A stretch of 62,654 nt of DNA from an uncultured Clostridia bacterium. GTDB taxonomy: Bacteria; Bacillota; Clostridia; Oscillospirales; Oscillospiraceae. Below the pieces are notes generated by a model that was given only the letters and a program-made list of their open reading frames with translations, was not told the origin of the DNA and searched no databases. Below, in pieces: positions 54,344 through 60,751 of the stretch. Numbering within the stretch: the stretch's first letter is position 1; every line of letters starts with the position of its first letter. The stretch lies in the NCBI GenBank assembly GCA_945915065.1, contig CAMEER010000005.1, positions 1-62,654 of the forward strand. Direction: 5' to 3'. Made by a program: the position numbers and the translations under genes.

Positions 54344-56812
54344 TTACTCCTTGGTCAGGTGCCGCATGGCAGCCTTCAGCATCAGTTTTTTGGTCCCTAC
54401 ATTGTCGAAGGCTACTTCGATCAGCGCATCGCCGCCCATGGGGCGCACCGACAGCACCAGTCCGTGGCCAAAGGCGGTATGCGTCACACTCTCGCCGGCC
54501 TTCAGCTCCAGCAGAGGACCGCTCTCCCGCTTCGGTGCCGCAGCCGTATATGCAGGCTTCTTCACCGCAGGTCGGGCCGTCGCTACGCCATCAGACGAGT
54601 ACGATGTCACAGCGCTGCGGCCTGCGTAGCTTCCGCCAAAGCTACCAAAGCCGCCGGCATCGTCGTTATAATCGTCGCTCCAGTGGCGCTCGGCACGAGG
54701 CTCCGGTTTGCCGATCCACTGGCTGTTTTCCTCCGGGATCTCCTCCAGAAAGCGGGAGGGCATAGTCGGCGTGGTGCGGCCGAACAGCATGCGCTGCCTG
54801 GCATGGGTCATAGTCAGGTGCTCTCTGGCACGGGTCATAGCCACATAGCACAGCCGACGCTCCTCTTCCATCTCCTCTTCATCGCCCATGGCGCGGTTGC
54901 CGGGGAACAGGCCATCCTCCATGCCCACCACAAATACCTCCGGGAATTCCAGCCCCTTGGCACTGTGCATGGTCATCAGCACCACGCAGTTTTCACTCTC
55001 CTCAGTGCTGTCCAGATCGGTATACAGTGCCACCTCATCCAGAAAACCCGACAGGGAGGGATCGTCCGGCTGGTTGTCCAGAAAGGCGTGGATGCTGGAG
55101 GCCAGCTCCTGCACGTTTTCCAAACGTCCCCGACTCTCCATATCATTCTTCTCCGTCAGCATCGCAATGTAGCCGCTGCGGTTGCAGACAAATTCGTAAA
55201 ACTCCGGCAAGGGCAATTCCCCTGCTTTAGCCCGCATTTCCTCCATCAATGCTGTGAAGGTCTCCAGCCTTACAGACGCCGTTTTCAATTCCGGATAGGC
55301 CGAGGCATGGCAAAAGATCTCATATAAGGGCACCCCCTGCTCCGTGGCAAGGATCTGGGCTTTATCCACCGTGGCCGCACCAATCTTGCGGGAGGGAACA
55401 TTGACGATGCGCCGCAGGCGCAGATCATCGGCGGGGTTATTGATGACACACAGATACGCCAGCATATCCTTGATCTCAGCCCGATCAAAGAACTTCATAC
55501 CGCCGATGATCTTATAGGGAACACCGCTGCGCTTGAAGGCATATTCCAGCGCGTTGGATTGGGCATTCATACGGTAGAGCACCGCGTGATCCCGCCAGTT
55601 CATACCGCGGTTGTAGTTCATCATGATCTGCCCCACCACGAAATTGGCCTCGTCGCCTTCGTTGAAATTGGTCTTGATGAGCACTTTGTCTCCGGTGCCG
55701 TTGCGCGTCCACAATGTCTTGCCCTTTCGGCCCTGATTATGGCGGATGACGGCGTTGGCGGCATCCAGAATATTCTGGGTGGAACGGTAGTTCTGCTCCA
55801 GACGGATCGTGCGCACGCCCCGATACTGTTTTTCAAAGCTGAGGATATTCTCGATATTGGCGCCGCGGAACCGGTAGATGCTCTGATCGTCATCGCCCAC
55901 CACACAGATGTTGCGATATCCTCCCGCCAGTAAACTGGTCAGCAGGTATTGCAGATGGTTGGTGTCCTGATACTCGTCCACCAGCACATAGCGGAACTTC
56001 CGCTGATAGTACTCCCGCACCTCCGGGCAGCTTTGCAGCAGCTGTACGGTCAATAAAATGATATCGTCAAAGTCCAGTGCGTTGGCATCGCGCAGTTTCT
56101 TTGCGTAAAGTGAATACACTTTACTAATCCGAGTCTTTCGCCAATCGTTGTTCTTTTCCCAATACGCACGGAAATCCTCCGGCAGCAGCATCTCGTCCTT
56201 TGCCCGGGAAATAACCGATACGATCTCCCGAACCGGGAAAGTCTTTTCATCCAGATCCAGTTCCTTAAGACAGTCCTTGACCACGCGTTTGCTGTCATCC
56301 GTATCATAGATGGTAAAATCTTTGGAATAGCCGATCTGCTCGATATCCCGCCGCAGGATGCGGACACAGGCAGAGTGGAACGTAGACGCCCATACGTCCC
56401 GGGCCTCCTCCCCCAGCATCCGCTCCAAACGCTCCTTCAGTTCATTGGCTGCCTTATTGGTGAAGGTAATGGCCAGCACCTCCCACGGACGGGCAGGCTC
56501 TAACGCACACAGATACTGCATCAGGGGACGCTGCTCCGGTGTGGGGTGGGCCGCATATTCCTCCAGAAACGCCACTTCATCCTCTGAAATAGGAATAGGG
56601 ATCTCATCTGTGTCGCTGCCGCGGCCGTACCGCAGCAGATTGGCCACCCGGTGAATCAGCACCGTAGTTTTTCCGCTGCCCGCTCCGGCCAGCAGCAACA
56701 GCGGTCCTTCCGTGGCCATCACGCCCTGCTGCTGCATGTCATTCAAGTGGGCGTAATCCACAGCGATCGCCTGCCGCCGTGCATGGATAAATCTCTGTTC
56801 CAGTTCCGTCAT
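54344..56812 (-). CDS. pcrA: ATP-dependent DNA helicase PcrA/UvrD
   Basis: A 3'-5' superfamily 1 helicase for repair and replication-fork clearance. The start at 56812 (MTELEQRFIH) follows GGGGAG at 8 nt. The 822-aa protein has Q motif 'LNDMQQQGV', Walker A 'LLAGAGSGKTTVL', Ia 'AITFTNKAANELKERL', II 'VDEYQDTN', III 'VGDDDQSIYRFRGA', IV 'LEQNYRST', V 'LMTMHSAKGLEF' and VI 'VAMTRAREHL', and a C-terminal Tudor-like end ('VTHTAFGHGLVLSV') after a low-complexity linker. It is divergent from a LexA-boxed repair operon. Confidence 0.95.
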   Translation of the reverse strand: MTELEQRFIHARRQAIAVDYAHLNDMQQQGVMATEGPLLLLAGAGSGKTTVLIHRVANLLRYGRGSDTDEIPIPISEDEVAFLEEYAAHPTPEQRPLMQYLCALEPARPWEVLAITFTNKAANELKERLERMLGEEARDVWASTFHSACVRILRRDIEQIGYSKDFTIYDTDDSKRVVKDCLKELDLDEKTFPVREIVSVISRAKDEMLLPEDFRAYWEKNNDWRKTRISKVYSLYAKKLRDANALDFDDIILLTVQLLQSCPEVREYYQRKFRYVLVDEYQDTNHLQYLLTSLLAGGYRNICVVGDDDQSIYRFRGANIENILSFEKQYRGVRTIRLEQNYRSTQNILDAANAVIRHNQGRKGKTLWTRNGTGDKVLIKTNFNEGDEANFVVGQIMMNYNRGMNWRDHAVLYRMNAQSNALEYAFKRSGVPYKIIGGMKFFDRAEIKDMLAYLCVINNPADDLRLRRIVNVPSRKIGAATVDKAQILATEQGVPLYEIFCHASAYPELKTASVRLETFTALMEEMRAKAGELPLPEFYEFVCNRSGYIAMLTEKNDMESRGRLENVQELASSIHAFLDNQPDDPSLSGFLDEVALYTDLDSTEESENCVVLMTMHSAKGLEFPEVFVVGMEDGLFPGNRAMGDEEEMEEERRLCYVAMTRAREHLTMTHARQRMLFGRTTPTMPSRFLEEIPEENSQWIGKPEPRAERHWSDDYNDDAGGFGSFGGSYAGRSAVTSYSSDGVATARPAVKKPAYTAAAPKRESGPLLELKAGESVTHTAFGHGLVLSVRPMGGDALIEVAFDNVGTKKLMLKAAMRHLTKE

Positions 56813-56878: not shown

Positions 56879-56917
56879 CAGCTACCGTAAATCTTAGAAA
56901 TTTTGTTCGATTTTCTC

Positions 56918-56946
56918 TTGACAGAAACGTTTGTTCGATGTATAAT
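56918..56946 (+). promoter_or_regulatory. Consensus promoter of the SOS repair cassette
   Basis: TTGACA (56918-56923), 17-nt spacer, TATAAT (56941-56946): both hexamers perfect. The spacer is occupied by a LexA box, so strong transcription is expected only when LexA is cleaved. Confidence 0.85.
56924..56937. promoter_or_regulatory. LexA (SOS) box
   Basis: GAAACGTTTGTTCG; its complement CGAACAAACGTTTC satisfies every position of the Bacillus LexA/DinR consensus CGAACRNRYGTTYC. It sits between the -35 and -10 of the cassette promoter. Two degenerate relatives flank it (56897-56910, and 56952-56965 starting CGAACAAAA), each keeping one good half. Confidence 0.85.
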
Positions 56947-56982
56947 GCATATCGAACAAAAATTCTATTGGAGGTTCCTGTT

Positions 56983-57105
56983 ATGGCTACTATTGGGTAT
57001 GTAATTGTAATTCTGGGAGCGATGTCCGTTTCCGTAAATCTGATGCACCTGATCGACCGACTGGAACGGCCGCGCCGCAGTCAGCGCCGCCGTAATGCTG
57101 CCTGA
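56983..57105 (+). CDS. 40-aa SOS-controlled membrane microprotein
   Basis: The ATG at 56983 has GGAGG at 8-nt spacing. The product is MATIGYVIVILGAMSVSVNL followed by MHLIDRLERPRRSQRRRNAA: one membrane helix (about 4-23), then a very basic tail (seven Arg in the last 16 residues), so N-out/C-in topology is likely. It is first behind the LexA-controlled promoter and ends 3 nt before the radical SAM gene. Family not recognised. Its size, single helix and SOS control recall SOS cell-division inhibitors such as SidA and YneA, but there is no sequence match to claim. Confidence 0.7.
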   Translation: MATIGYVIVILGAMSVSVNLMHLIDRLERPRRSQRRRNAA

Positions 57106-57108
57106 GTC

Positions 57109-58377
57109 ATGGATCTTCTGGAAAAGCTGACCATTCTGTCGGATGCCGCCAAATACGACGCCGCCTGTACATCCAGCGGGGTCAAGCGTAAGTTTCAGCC
57201 CGGGAAGATCGGCAACACTTCCTCTTCTATTGCAGGCTGCTGTCACAGCTTTTCCGCCGACGGACGCTGCATCACGCTGTTGAAGGTATTGATGACCAAC
57301 AGCTGCGTTTACGACTGCAAATATTGTGTCAACCGGCGCTCCAACGATACCCGTCGTGCTGCTTTTACGCCCCGTGAGCTGGCGGAACTGACCATCGGCT
57401 TTTATCGACGGAATTATATTGAGGGGCTTTTTCTTTCCTCCGGTGTGATGCGCAATGCTGACTACACTACCGAGCAAATGATCCGTGCCCTACAGATCCT
57501 GCGGCAGGAATACGGCTTTAATGGGTACATTCATGCAAAAGCCATCCCCGGCACATCTCCGGAATTGGTGCAGCAGTTGGGCCTTTTGGCTGACCGCATG
57601 AGTGTCAACATCGAGCTGCCCTCCCAGCAGGGATTACAGCTGCTTGCTCCCGATAAAACAAGGGAAGCTATCCTGCGGCCTATGGGACTGATCCGCGACA
57701 GGGTATTGGAAAACCGTCAGGAATTGGTCAAATATAAGCACGCCCCGTCCTTTTCTCCGGCAGGACAGAGCACCCAGCTGATCGTGGGAGCGACGCAAGA
57801 CACCGACCGGCACATTCTGCATCTGACAGAGGCACTTTATCAGAAATATCGTCTCAAACGAGTGTTTTACTCTGCCTATGTTCCGGTAGTAGAAAACAGT
57901 CTCCTGCCCTCTCTGGATACCAAGCCGCCGCTGCTGCGGGAGCATCGGCTCTATCAGGCAGACTGGCTGCTGCGGTTTTATGGTTTTCGTGCCTCCGAGT
58001 TGTTGGATGAGGCTCATCCGGACTTCAATCCACAGCTGGATCCCAAATGCAGTTGGGCGGTTGCCCATTTGGAGCAATTTCCTGTGGAGATCATGCGAGC
58101 AGAATATGAAACGCTGCTGCGGATTCCGGGTATCGGTCCGACCAGTGCCAAGCGTATCCTCTCAGCCCGGCGTACCACACATCTGCGGCTTGAGGATCTG
58201 AAAAAGCTGGGGGTGGTCGTTAAGCGGGCACAGTATTTCCTTCTCTGTGATGGTCACGCCGCGCCCGGGCTGCGGTTCTCCCCTTCCACTATCGTGCAGC
58301 AGCTGGAGGCCGTAGAACGAGGGTCGTTGCCAGAAAGTGAGATGCAGCAGCTATCTTTATTTGACGCAGCGGGGTGA
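57109..58377 (+). CDS. Radical SAM protein of the putative DNA modification/repair family
   Basis: A 422-aa cytosolic enzyme. The radical SAM cluster motif is 'CVYDCKYCVNRRSND' (C66, C70, C73), preceded by extra cysteines ('CTSSGVKRKFQPGK' at 20, 'AGCCHSFSADGRC'), and the barrel runs to about 300. The C-terminus has a helix-hairpin-helix DNA-binding segment ('LLRIPGIGPTSAKRILSARR', about 337-356). This fits the family annotated as DNA modification/repair radical SAM linked to uracil-DNA glycosylase-like partners; the reaction is unknown. LexA control and the HhH support action on DNA. Overlaps the next gene by 4 nt. Confidence 0.88.
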   Translation: MDLLEKLTILSDAAKYDAACTSSGVKRKFQPGKIGNTSSSIAGCCHSFSADGRCITLLKVLMTNSCVYDCKYCVNRRSNDTRRAAFTPRELAELTIGFYRRNYIEGLFLSSGVMRNADYTTEQMIRALQILRQEYGFNGYIHAKAIPGTSPELVQQLGLLADRMSVNIELPSQQGLQLLAPDKTREAILRPMGLIRDRVLENRQELVKYKHAPSFSPAGQSTQLIVGATQDTDRHILHLTEALYQKYRLKRVFYSAYVPVVENSLLPSLDTKPPLLREHRLYQADWLLRFYGFRASELLDEAHPDFNPQLDPKCSWAVAHLEQFPVEIMRAEYETLLRIPGIGPTSAKRILSARRTTHLRLEDLKKLGVVVKRAQYFLLCDGHAAPGLRFSPSTIVQQLEAVERGSLPESEMQQLSLFDAAG

Positions 58378-59261
58378 ACAGTGTGGCATGGAGAGATGTG
58401 GTTTTTCAATATGACGGCACTTTTGAAGGTTTTCTGTGCTGCGTGTTTGAGAGCTATGTGCATAAAGAATTCCCCATTGCTTTTTCCGGCAATGAGGAAT
58501 GTTGGTCGCTGTATGAGGTGCGCTATGTGGTGACAGAGCGAGAGCATGCCCGCCGTGTATACGACAGTATTTTGCGGCGTTCCAAAGGCGCAGCGGATGT
58601 AGTGCGGCGCGGGTTTCTCACCTGTCTGCCGGAAAAGGAATCCCGATTATATGCCGTGATTCAAAAGCTATATGAGGAGGGCGCCGGTTTTCTGCACAAT
58701 ATTTCTGATCCGGTGTACTACCCCGTTGCCAAAGCCCTTCGTCACCTGAGCGGTGAGTTGGAAAAATTGCGGGGCTTTGTTCGTTTTTCAGATTACAAGG
58801 GCGTTCTGGGGGCGGAGATCGAACCAAAAAATCGGGTTTTACCCCTGCTGCGAAAGCACTTCTGTGACCGATACGCCAATGAGGCGTTTTTTATATATGA
58901 CCGAACCAACAAAGAATTGTTGGTTTATGCCAACAGTCACTCCCGCCTTCTTACAGTGGACAGTCTGCAGTTGTCGCTGCCCGGTGAAGAAGAGGTGCAG
59001 TTTCGCAGGTTATGGAAACAATTCTATGAAACCATTGCTATCCAAGAACGGTATAATCCCCGGTGTCAGAACACGTTTATGCCAAAGCGGTATCGCGGCA
59101 CTATGACAGAGTTTTTGCCGGACGACTATGAAGCACAACAAAAAGGCGTCAATCCGCCAGCAGCTTGCGCAGCTTTTCCAAGCCCCTGTGTTCCAAACGG
59201 GAAATCTGAACCTGCGATACTCCCACGATCCGGGCTGTCTGCTCCTGAGTCAGCCCCTTGA
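58374..59261 (+). CDS. Companion DNA-metabolism protein (TIGR03915/DUF4130-like)
   Basis: A 295-aa protein starting with GTG in GTGA (GTG 58383 is an alternative). 'VFQYDGTFEGFLCCVFESY' (about 10-28) and 'FVRFSDYKGVLGAEIEPKNR' (about 134-153) followed by 'FCDRYANEAFFIYDRTN' are the family landmarks; some relatives carry a C-terminal uracil-DNA glycosylase domain, absent here. It always travels with the radical SAM gene. Odd feature: the family core ends around 'MPKRYRGTMTEF' (about residue 247), and the last ~37 residues, Pro/Ser-rich, are read from the antisense strand of sigF, a 113-bp convergent overlap. Confidence 0.85.
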   Translation: MNSVAWRDVVFQYDGTFEGFLCCVFESYVHKEFPIAFSGNEECWSLYEVRYVVTEREHARRVYDSILRRSKGAADVVRRGFLTCLPEKESRLYAVIQKLYEEGAGFLHNISDPVYYPVAKALRHLSGELEKLRGFVRFSDYKGVLGAEIEPKNRVLPLLRKHFCDRYANEAFFIYDRTNKELLVYANSHSRLLTVDSLQLSLPGEEEVQFRRLWKQFYETIAIQERYNPRCQNTFMPKRYRGTMTEFLPDDYEAQQKGVNPPAACAAFPSPCVPNGKSEPAILPRSGLSAPESAP

Positions 59262-59853
59262 AAAAGCGCAGGAGAATGGTCATCTTTTCTTTTTCCGGGA
59301 GCGTATCAATGGCCTCCCGCAAGGCTATGCTCTCCACAAGGCGCTCTTCCTCTGCATCCGTACCTAATGTCGATTCCAGTGTCAAGCCCTCTGCAGTTTC
59401 CTGCTGCAGCGATTCCGGAGCCACAGTGGCAAGGTCAATATTGGCAATTTCCTCTACTGTCATTCCGGTGGCCTCTGACAGCTCGGACAGGTGGGCCTCC
59501 CGACCCAACTGATGCCGCAGTTTTTCCCTTGCCGACCAGAGGGTCTGGCCCTTTTCCCGGATGGTGCGGCCTACTTTGATGGCGCCATCATCTCGAAGAA
59601 AGCGTCGAATCTCACCGGAGATTTTGGGCACGGCGTAGGTGGAAAACTGGGTACCGTAATTGAGATCAAACCCTTTTACTGCCTTGATAAAACCGATACA
59701 TCCCAGCTGATAGAGGTCATCCGTTTCTACACCGCAGCCGTAATACCGCTTGACAATGGACCAGATCAGTCCACTGTTCTCTGTCAGCACCTGCTGGCAT
59801 GCCTCGTCGTCTCCCCCCTGCGCCCGTTCCAGCAGCGCAAACATCTCGCTCAT
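59149..59853 (-). CDS. sigF: Sporulation sigma factor SigF
   Basis: The first forespore-specific sigma factor, 234 aa. Region 2 ('DDLYQLGCIGFIKAVKGFDL', 'FSTYAVPKISGEIRRFLRDD', about 45-85), region 3 (about 95-135) and region 4 ('LPEKEKMTILLRFFKGLTQE', 'VGVSQVQISRLEHRGLEKL') are complete. It overlaps spoIIAB by 4 nt and is held inactive by SpoIIAB until SpoIIAA is dephosphorylated. Its 3' 113 bp are overlapped by the convergent SOS cassette gene; no terminator for sigF is visible there. Confidence 0.95.
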   Translation of the reverse strand: MSEMFALLERAQGGDDEACQQVLTENSGLIWSIVKRYYGCGVETDDLYQLGCIGFIKAVKGFDLNYGTQFSTYAVPKISGEIRRFLRDDGAIKVGRTIREKGQTLWSAREKLRHQLGREAHLSELSEATGMTVEEIANIDLATVAPESLQQETAEGLTLESTLGTDAEEERLVESIALREAIDTLPEKEKMTILLRFFKGLTQEQTARIVGVSQVQISRLEHRGLEKLRKLLAD

Positions 59854-60726: not shown

Positions 60727-60751
60727 GACATGCCGCAGGCATGTCCTTTTT
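60727..60751 (+). other. Hairpin upstream of the spoIIA operon
   Basis: GACATGCC-GCA-GGCATGTC followed on the plus strand by CTTTTT. On the plus strand it resembles a terminator but no plus-strand gene precedes it; on the minus strand it lies within the expected promoter region of spoIIAA, so the palindrome could also be a protein-binding site. Confidence 0.4.

Follow-up and report, generated by a model that had tools for sequence, protein, structure and literature searches.

A conserved microprotein gene shares a predicted LexA-controlled operon with a radical SAM/DUF4130 enzyme pair in Oscillospiraceae

In Clostridium acetobutylicum the gene pair CAC3343–CAC3344 was predicted from footprinting and expression data to form a LexA operon (PMC3828012), and SOS control was inferred for the COG1573–COG4277 operons of Bacteroidetes (PMC8565304). 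The LexA regulon of Streptomyces includes a radical S-adenosylmethionine (SAM) protein, its family unstated in the passage concerned (PMC9380542), and DUF4130 has been described as a predicted enzyme related to mutagenesis and linked with SplB-like radical SAM proteins and uracil-DNA glycosylases (UDGs; PMC3765255). Membrane proteins that inhibit cell division as part of the SOS response are described in passages of PMC13396833 and PMC9578287. Here we report an operon at 56883–59261 of a 62,654-nucleotide stretch (contig CAMEER010000005.1, positions 1–62,654, assembly GCA_945915065.1; hereafter the window) from an uncultured bacterium of the Oscillospiraceae, in which a gene for a 40-amino-acid microprotein precedes a radical SAM gene and a DUF4130 gene behind a promoter bearing predicted LexA operators. 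We describe the operators, their conservation and the apparent consequences for translation, and discuss what the microprotein may do.

The promoter lies on the plus strand, with the −35 hexamer TTGACA at 56918–56923 and the −10 hexamer TATAAT at 56941–56946; the two are separated by 17 bp and match the consensus at 12 of 12 positions, and the promoter was aligned across 23 loci. A first-pass annotation of the window had read a perfect promoter here and, within the spacer, a complete LexA box of the Firmicute type, and both readings hold: the Firmicute LexA consensus is CGAACRNRYGTTYC, and predicted operator 2, in the spacer at 56924–56937 on the minus strand, matches it in full as CGAACAAACGTTTC. 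The sites on either side had been taken for degenerate half-sites. They are instead dyads, GAAATTTTGTTC upstream of the −35 element (predicted operator 1, 56897–56908) and GAACAAAAATTC downstream of the −10 element (predicted operator 3, 56954–56965), to neither of which a strand is assigned; each matches seven of the eight letters of GAACN4GTTC, given as the Bacillus subtilis LexA dyad in PMC4234289, which also reports a lexA operator of C. difficile sharing the GAACAAATGTTT core. A LexA-type operator thus overlaps the operon promoter, the arrangement that marks a member of the LexA regulon, and the regulatory observation is both right and stronger than first stated.

Operator 2 is the sole exact match to CGAACRNRYGTTYC across the genome (1.71 Mb, 80.85% complete), and a lone exact 14-mer per genome is, taken by itself, within chance; GAACN4GTTC with one mismatch allowed is at chance level over the window (19 found, 19.08 expected), and the box pattern with an altered last letter shows no excess either (98 found, 132 expected). 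The significance of the box derives from its position, from its conservation and from the restriction of the core GAACAWRYGTT to lexA and this operon, for this core has exactly two sites in the genome, one at the lexA promoter and one here (reversed control, one). The genome's own lexA site, GAACAAATGTTG, is a motif of the same kind, with two mismatches to the 14-letter consensus, and does not fit the stricter 12-mer GAACRNRYGTTY, whose two genome matches fall at the operon and inside a reading frame (reversed control, 12). A GAACA-type core stands upstream of all 12 lexA genes examined in the genus (from 12 of 13 genomes), as GAACAAATGTT in nine and as GAACATATGTT, GAACATCTGTT and GAACAGTTGTT once each. 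Across the 13 genus genomes GAACAWRYGTTY gave 24 rows representing 23 distinct sites (reversed control, 12). Nine of the 23 are at this operon's promoter, in 8 of the 13 genomes, and 12 of the remaining 14 lie, by a mechanical count, within open frames of at least 70 amino acids; one site is close to a truncated gene resembling those of Y-family polymerases (24.4 bits against the DNA polymerase IV model, far short of the cut-off). At the recA start of the window's genome (L002 1330–1480) no LexA-like core occurs within the 150 bp read around it, and recA may be transcribed from further upstream.

Conservation was assessed in 179 radical SAM loci, comprising 80 from named stretches (the best of 583 confirmed) and 99 from 300 genomes of the family; the gene matched at E ≤ 0.001 in 117 of these genomes and lay over the cut-off in 100, one of the 100 places (G249) being left out. 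Removal of nine duplicates gave 170 distinct loci, 24 of which, including the window, carry the microprotein; the sample represents close relatives of the window gene and one family and is not random. Of 169 loci (one more had too little upstream DNA), 147 have a dyad of at least 7/8 in the 250 bp before the gene, compared with a mean of 12.0 and a maximum of 18 in shuffles, 29 of 169 inside the gene and 7–18 of 169 for unrelated dyads. Perfect 8/8 dyads occur in 79 of 169, against a shuffle mean of 0.8, none inside the gene and 0–3 for unrelated dyads. The bearers of upstream dyads include Paenibacillus, Sporomusa, Pelosinus, Desulfosporosinus and Anaerotruncus. Pattern GAACRNRYGTTY, found within the same distance in 88 of 169 loci, undercounts because sister loci without the microprotein have looser dyads. 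The first-pass annotation had proposed direct SOS control, and the sequence, the conservation of the operators and the lexA core all support it: the lexA genes of the genus share the core rather than showing a different motif, and the box is kept upstream of orthologues. The check that it proposed, for a LexA box and a small membrane open reading frame (ORF) before the radical SAM gene, gave a dyad at most loci but the ORF in only 24 of 170. On these sequence grounds LexA/SOS control of the operon is strongly supported, and because dyads precede the gene in 147 of 169 loci this control looks older than the microprotein.

Where the microprotein occurs the operators have a characteristic geometry, three dyads of at least 6/8 at near-fixed spacing (about 28 and 29 bp) being present in 21 of the 24 loci, with chance accounting for 2–3% per box. 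Operator 2 reaches 6/8 in all 24, operator 3 in 23, at 28–29 bp from operator 2, and operator 1 in 21, at 27–29 bp. Two of the operator 1 misses, L125 and L130, have no site; the third, L008, is also the operator 3 miss and was lost for both through a register error, its operator 1 site being visible in the promoter alignment and its operator 2 being truly weak.

The microprotein gene (56983–57105, plus strand) encodes one hydrophobic, transmembrane-like segment followed by an arginine-rich C-terminal tail, and the window's protein has no match in Pfam or NCBIfam. Profile searches of all upstream frames recovered homologues in the 24 loci at E ≤ 5.1e-8, the next match being at 2.9; ten of the 24 had seeded the profile. 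In a 168-row tree the bearers are confined to one part, corresponding to a single Oscillospiraceae clade among the sampled loci, and the label requires 3 changes compared with 22.8 in shuffles (quick method), readable as one gain and two losses, with well-supported branches forcing at least two. From this distribution the microprotein looks like a later addition. Matches at E ≤ 0.01 occur in 35 of 400 family genomes. The strong ones (E ≤ 2.3e-13) number 28, no genome has more than one, and each stands directly before the radical SAM gene; ten of the 28 are from genomes outside the first set, nine of them new given that G302 is the same record as L010. Only six of 394 genomes drawn from the order matched at E ≤ 0.001, all of this family. 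Pusillibacter faecalis MM59 has the same cassette, with the ORF annotated as a hypothetical protein (WP_256315625.1), and the titles and passages found in a search of an open-access library do not contain the microprotein.

Twenty-two aligned rows share the hydrophobic segment, an invariant G12 and an LMRLIDRLDxP-like motif. The tail is basic in all 24 loci (net charge +1 to +6), compared with −6 to +6 for 16 paralogue tails, all tails being cut by position. Among the pairs listed, the five with the lowest dN have dN/dS ratios of 0.04, 0.07, 0.16, 0.25 and 0.28; the median over 253 pairs is 0.55, with 91% of them below 1. Five genes of equal length give a pN/pS of 0.41 for the true frame against 1.14 and 1.17 for the shifted ones, and variability peaks at codon position 3. 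A spurious ORF was rejected on the gap in homology E-values, the selection seen between close pairs and the control with shifted frames. What had been announced as a new membrane microprotein is, as far as these comparisons go, a conserved gene, albeit one of a single clade and with a role as membrane partner that we can only propose. A phage origin was considered and rejected: five of 22 members weakly match phrog_19190, a phage family of unknown function (best E 5.8e-5), and tblastn of one member against a phage collection returned nothing.

The gene order and junctions given by the first-pass annotation were confirmed by direct reading, with a 3-nt gap between the microprotein gene and the radical SAM gene (57109–58377, plus strand, 422 amino acids) and a 4-nt overlap between the latter and the DUF4130 gene (58374–59261, plus strand, 295 amino acids). 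A Shine-Dalgarno sequence, GGAGG, precedes the microprotein at 56970–56974 (plus strand), and the radical SAM gene is without one of its own. The same switch is seen throughout: none of the 24 microprotein loci has a Shine-Dalgarno sequence of at least 4 nt ahead of the radical SAM gene, compared with 107 of the 146 others (9 of 12 among near loci), and it is likewise missing in all 28 strong-hit genomes. The microprotein has its own in 23 of 23 counted loci; L133 was excluded here and from the promoter alignment for its misplaced start, the corrected start having GGGGG and not GGAGG. From microprotein stop to radical SAM start the distance is 1–21 nt in the 24 loci. That the radical SAM gene has no Shine-Dalgarno sequence where the microprotein occurs implies coupled translation, and suggests that ribosome loading passed to the microprotein ORF. 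The leader RNA has an unremarkable fold (z-score 0.98) and no match on either strand to the described families in Rfam.

Both enzymes belong to recognised families, as had been claimed. The radical SAM protein scores 654.7 bits against TIGR03916 (rSAM_link_UDG; NCBIfam cut-off 343.5), and its companion 200.7 bits against TIGR03915 (cut-off 112.25) and 150.4 bits against DUF4130 in Pfam (cut-off 27; 4.8e-44). In Pfam the former matches Radical_SAM, with matches to its C-terminal helix-hairpin-helix (HhH) below the gathering score (HHH_5 2.3e-4, HHH 4.3e-4); among solved structures its best match is a ComEA-like HhH piece (E 3e-4), and the DUF4130 protein has none at E ≤ 1. Only TIGR03916 reached E 0.001 in NCBIfam, with no spore photoproduct lyase model doing so, and no direct comparison with a spore photoproduct lyase protein was made. 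Cysteines C66, C70 and C73 of the CxxxCxxC cluster motif are invariant across 27 aligned rows, as are three others, C20, C45 and C54 (27/27), which might be ligands of a second metal cluster. A DUF4130 gene lies downstream of the radical SAM gene at 163 of 170 loci, three of the seven misses being at contig or stretch ends. The HhH and the cluster cysteines lead us to predict that the pair acts on DNA; the open-access literature examined assigns it no reaction. The genome also encodes, on a contig other than the operon's, a UDG domain related to TIGR03914 (L279, G000:C1:130782-131285), at 139.9 bits below the cut-off of 189.95. The radical SAM gene further occurs in records labelled as phage (ten) or viral contigs (two), L270, L271 and L273 among them; L273 (MT839858.1) bears the microprotein and looks to us like bacterial DNA from a stool sample.

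We favour, with a probability of roughly 70% for the explanation as a whole, a LexA-repressed SOS operon in which coupled translation supplies a membrane partner for the radical SAM/DUF4130 repair pair. LexA on the three operators, before the −35 element, within the spacer and after the −10 element, would block RNA polymerase until DNA damage brings about its cleavage and a single mRNA is made. Ribosomes would load at the microprotein's strong Shine-Dalgarno sequence, begin again at the start codon of the radical SAM gene and continue into the DUF4130 gene by way of the 4-nt overlap, and such chained translation from one Shine-Dalgarno sequence would link the amounts of the products. Damaged or modified DNA is the most likely target of the radical SAM/HhH enzyme and its DUF4130 partner, which would bind it and use radical chemistry on a lesion in a base. 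The microprotein would insert into the membrane with its arginine-rich tail in the cytoplasm, an orientation suggested by the positive-inside rule because the positive residues follow the hydrophobic segment, and most likely brings the repair activity, or a damage signal, to the membrane; this tethering role is preferred because production of the microprotein is tied to that of the enzyme. It is from operator anatomy, conservation and the missing Shine-Dalgarno sequence, all read from DNA, that we infer LexA binding, induction, coupling, membrane insertion, a repair reaction and the role of the microprotein.

A number of observations weigh against this explanation. Twenty-two of 169 loci have no dyad of 7/8 or better, and the dyads in 29 of 169 gene bodies are there by chance or codon use. 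The selection estimates are noisy, with nine of the 14 lowest-dS pairs listed at dN/dS 0.73–1.55, these being diverged pairs on about 29 synonymous sites. In P. faecalis a GGAGG in the microprotein's last codons lies 14 nt before the radical SAM start, and the Shine-Dalgarno sequence could have been lost just because a small ORF came to lie ahead of the gene. Absence from 146 of 170 loci means that the microprotein is not needed for basic function. Weaker paralogues, moreover, occur in other settings of the same genomes without LexA sites: 19 of 20 paralogue loci examined (L224–L243, out of 28 weaker hits) have no LexA-like site within two mismatches in 200 bp, and the remaining one has a single two-mismatch site. 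Their neighbours match, in Pfam, helix-turn-helix, DnaB, S24 repressor, DNA C5-methylase, aminotransferase and FMN-binding models, on the strength of nine neighbour proteins queried, two of which gave nothing, most neighbours falling outside these nine. The idea that the microprotein is tied to DNA damage wherever it is present was rejected on account of these settings.

The main rival to a tethering role is that the microprotein is an SOS cell-division brake like YneA, SosA or SidA, whose transmembrane helix holds a late divisome protein such as FtsW and which merely shares the promoter. We regard this as possible, if distinctly the less probable of the two. The microprotein has the size class, the one transmembrane-like segment and the LexA-type control of the small SOS-induced membrane proteins that, according to passages of PMC13396833 and PMC9578287, block division in several bacteria, and the gene divergent from lexA looks, from our own reading of its translation, like secG and not yneA. 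However, no LysM or other known domain is found in it by Pfam or NCBIfam, the weaker paralogues without LexA sites lie near genes of plasmid or integrative-and-conjugative-element type, a DNA methylase and aminotransferases, and an inhibitor would need no close translational linkage to a repair enzyme. The tight setting of its gene before that of the enzyme tells also against a small toxin-like peptide that acts like TisB to slow metabolism when DNA is damaged; LexA-type control, a transmembrane-like segment and the weak phrog_19190 similarity would suit such a peptide, but no Rfam RNA of a described family is present on either strand, and we think it very unlikely.

If the ORF were instead mainly a translated leader, carrying the ribosome binding site and setting radical SAM translation with its amino-acid sequence secondary, the Shine-Dalgarno switch and the short gaps would be accounted for, as would the many diverged pairs with dN/dS near or above 1. 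Such a leader is unlikely in view of the low dN/dS of the closest pairs and the agreeing frame control, the retention of the hydrophobic segment, the invariant G12 and the basic tail, and the lack of RNA structure. Least probable is that some regulator besides LexA uses the dyads, or that the motif is a chance match: the lone 14-mer, the near matches over the window and the GAACRNRYGTTY matches, fewer than in the reversed control, would be compatible with this, but the operators are conserved, lexA has a core of the same kind, and published predictions of LexA control exist for genes of this kind.

The flanking genes bear on the setting of the operon. The divergent pcrA-like helicase gene (54344–56812, minus strand, taking the ATG at 56812; the open frame extends to 56878) scores 848.1 bits against its best model, TIGR01073, below the 911.2 cut-off. 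It had been described as diverging from the same region, which is correct for the window; its own promoter-like site (56878–56850, minus strand) lies beyond operator 1 and overlaps no operator. A pcrA gene is divergent at 19 of the 24 microprotein loci, and the other five have the microprotein and radical SAM genes together with no pcrA match there. The region shared with pcrA is not essential. Downstream, a convergent SigF-type sigma factor gene (59149–59853, minus strand) overlaps the 3' end of the operon by 113 nt (59149–59261). Its product is below the SigF cut-offs, the next protein is over that for SpoIIAB, and the third exceeds the general anti-sigma antagonist cut-off and is below that of SpoIIAA. 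A convergent SigF-type gene follows at 22 of the 24 loci, overlapping the DUF4130 gene tail to tail by 80–119 nt at 21 of them and by 12 nt at the last, the available downstream stretch of the other two having no match. Four loci without the microprotein also have one (overlaps of 128, 24, 60 and −50 nt), so the arrangement is not peculiar to microprotein loci. Transcripts made during the SOS response may extend in antisense into sigF. Just past spoIIAA, at 60727–60745 of the window, the plus strand has a terminator-like site; among eight relatives four have one at that place, five have an earlier one and one has none, and given these mixed positions a long antisense transcript of the SOS response spanning all of spoIIA stays speculative. 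Quite unlikely is a compact DNA-damage checkpoint in which SOS microprotein and radical SAM lesion enzyme tie repair to the membrane or divisome, tail-to-tail transcription into the SigF-type gene interferes with entry into sporulation, and the microprotein family is a new class of SOS effector drawn from a wider family beside mobile-element-like genes.

LexA-type sites precede the enzyme pair in most sampled loci, and within a single gut clade translation of the pair seems linked to that of a conserved membrane microprotein; the isolate P. faecalis MM59 and the defined promoter give a handle in this clade on both the lesion and the membrane protein. YneA, SosA and SidA, as portrayed in the passages cited, resemble the microprotein as small SOS-controlled membrane proteins, and YneA differs in having a LysM domain, which Pfam and NCBIfam did not find in the 40 amino acids. 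To our knowledge none of the three is coupled to a repair enzyme. TisB is likened by action only. The Bacteroidetes operons are alike in their predicted SOS control and differ, in what is described of them, in having other LexA motifs and a uracil-DNA glycosylase partner where the operon here has a free DUF4130 protein; COG4277 we take to be the HhH/radical SAM family. The DUF4130 association in PMC3765255 is presented, in the passage concerned, with no mention of a microprotein and with the reaction unassigned. Closest in kind is CAC3343–CAC3344, the same kind of gene pair under predicted LexA control, likened by description and not by sequence or promoter, for which the relevant passages of PMC3828012 name no microprotein. 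LexA control of the enzyme pair is thus already known as a prediction in print (passages of PMC3828012 and PMC8565304), and the new content of the present operon lies in a microprotein conserved throughout its clade, in the geometry of the three operators and in the Shine-Dalgarno switch.

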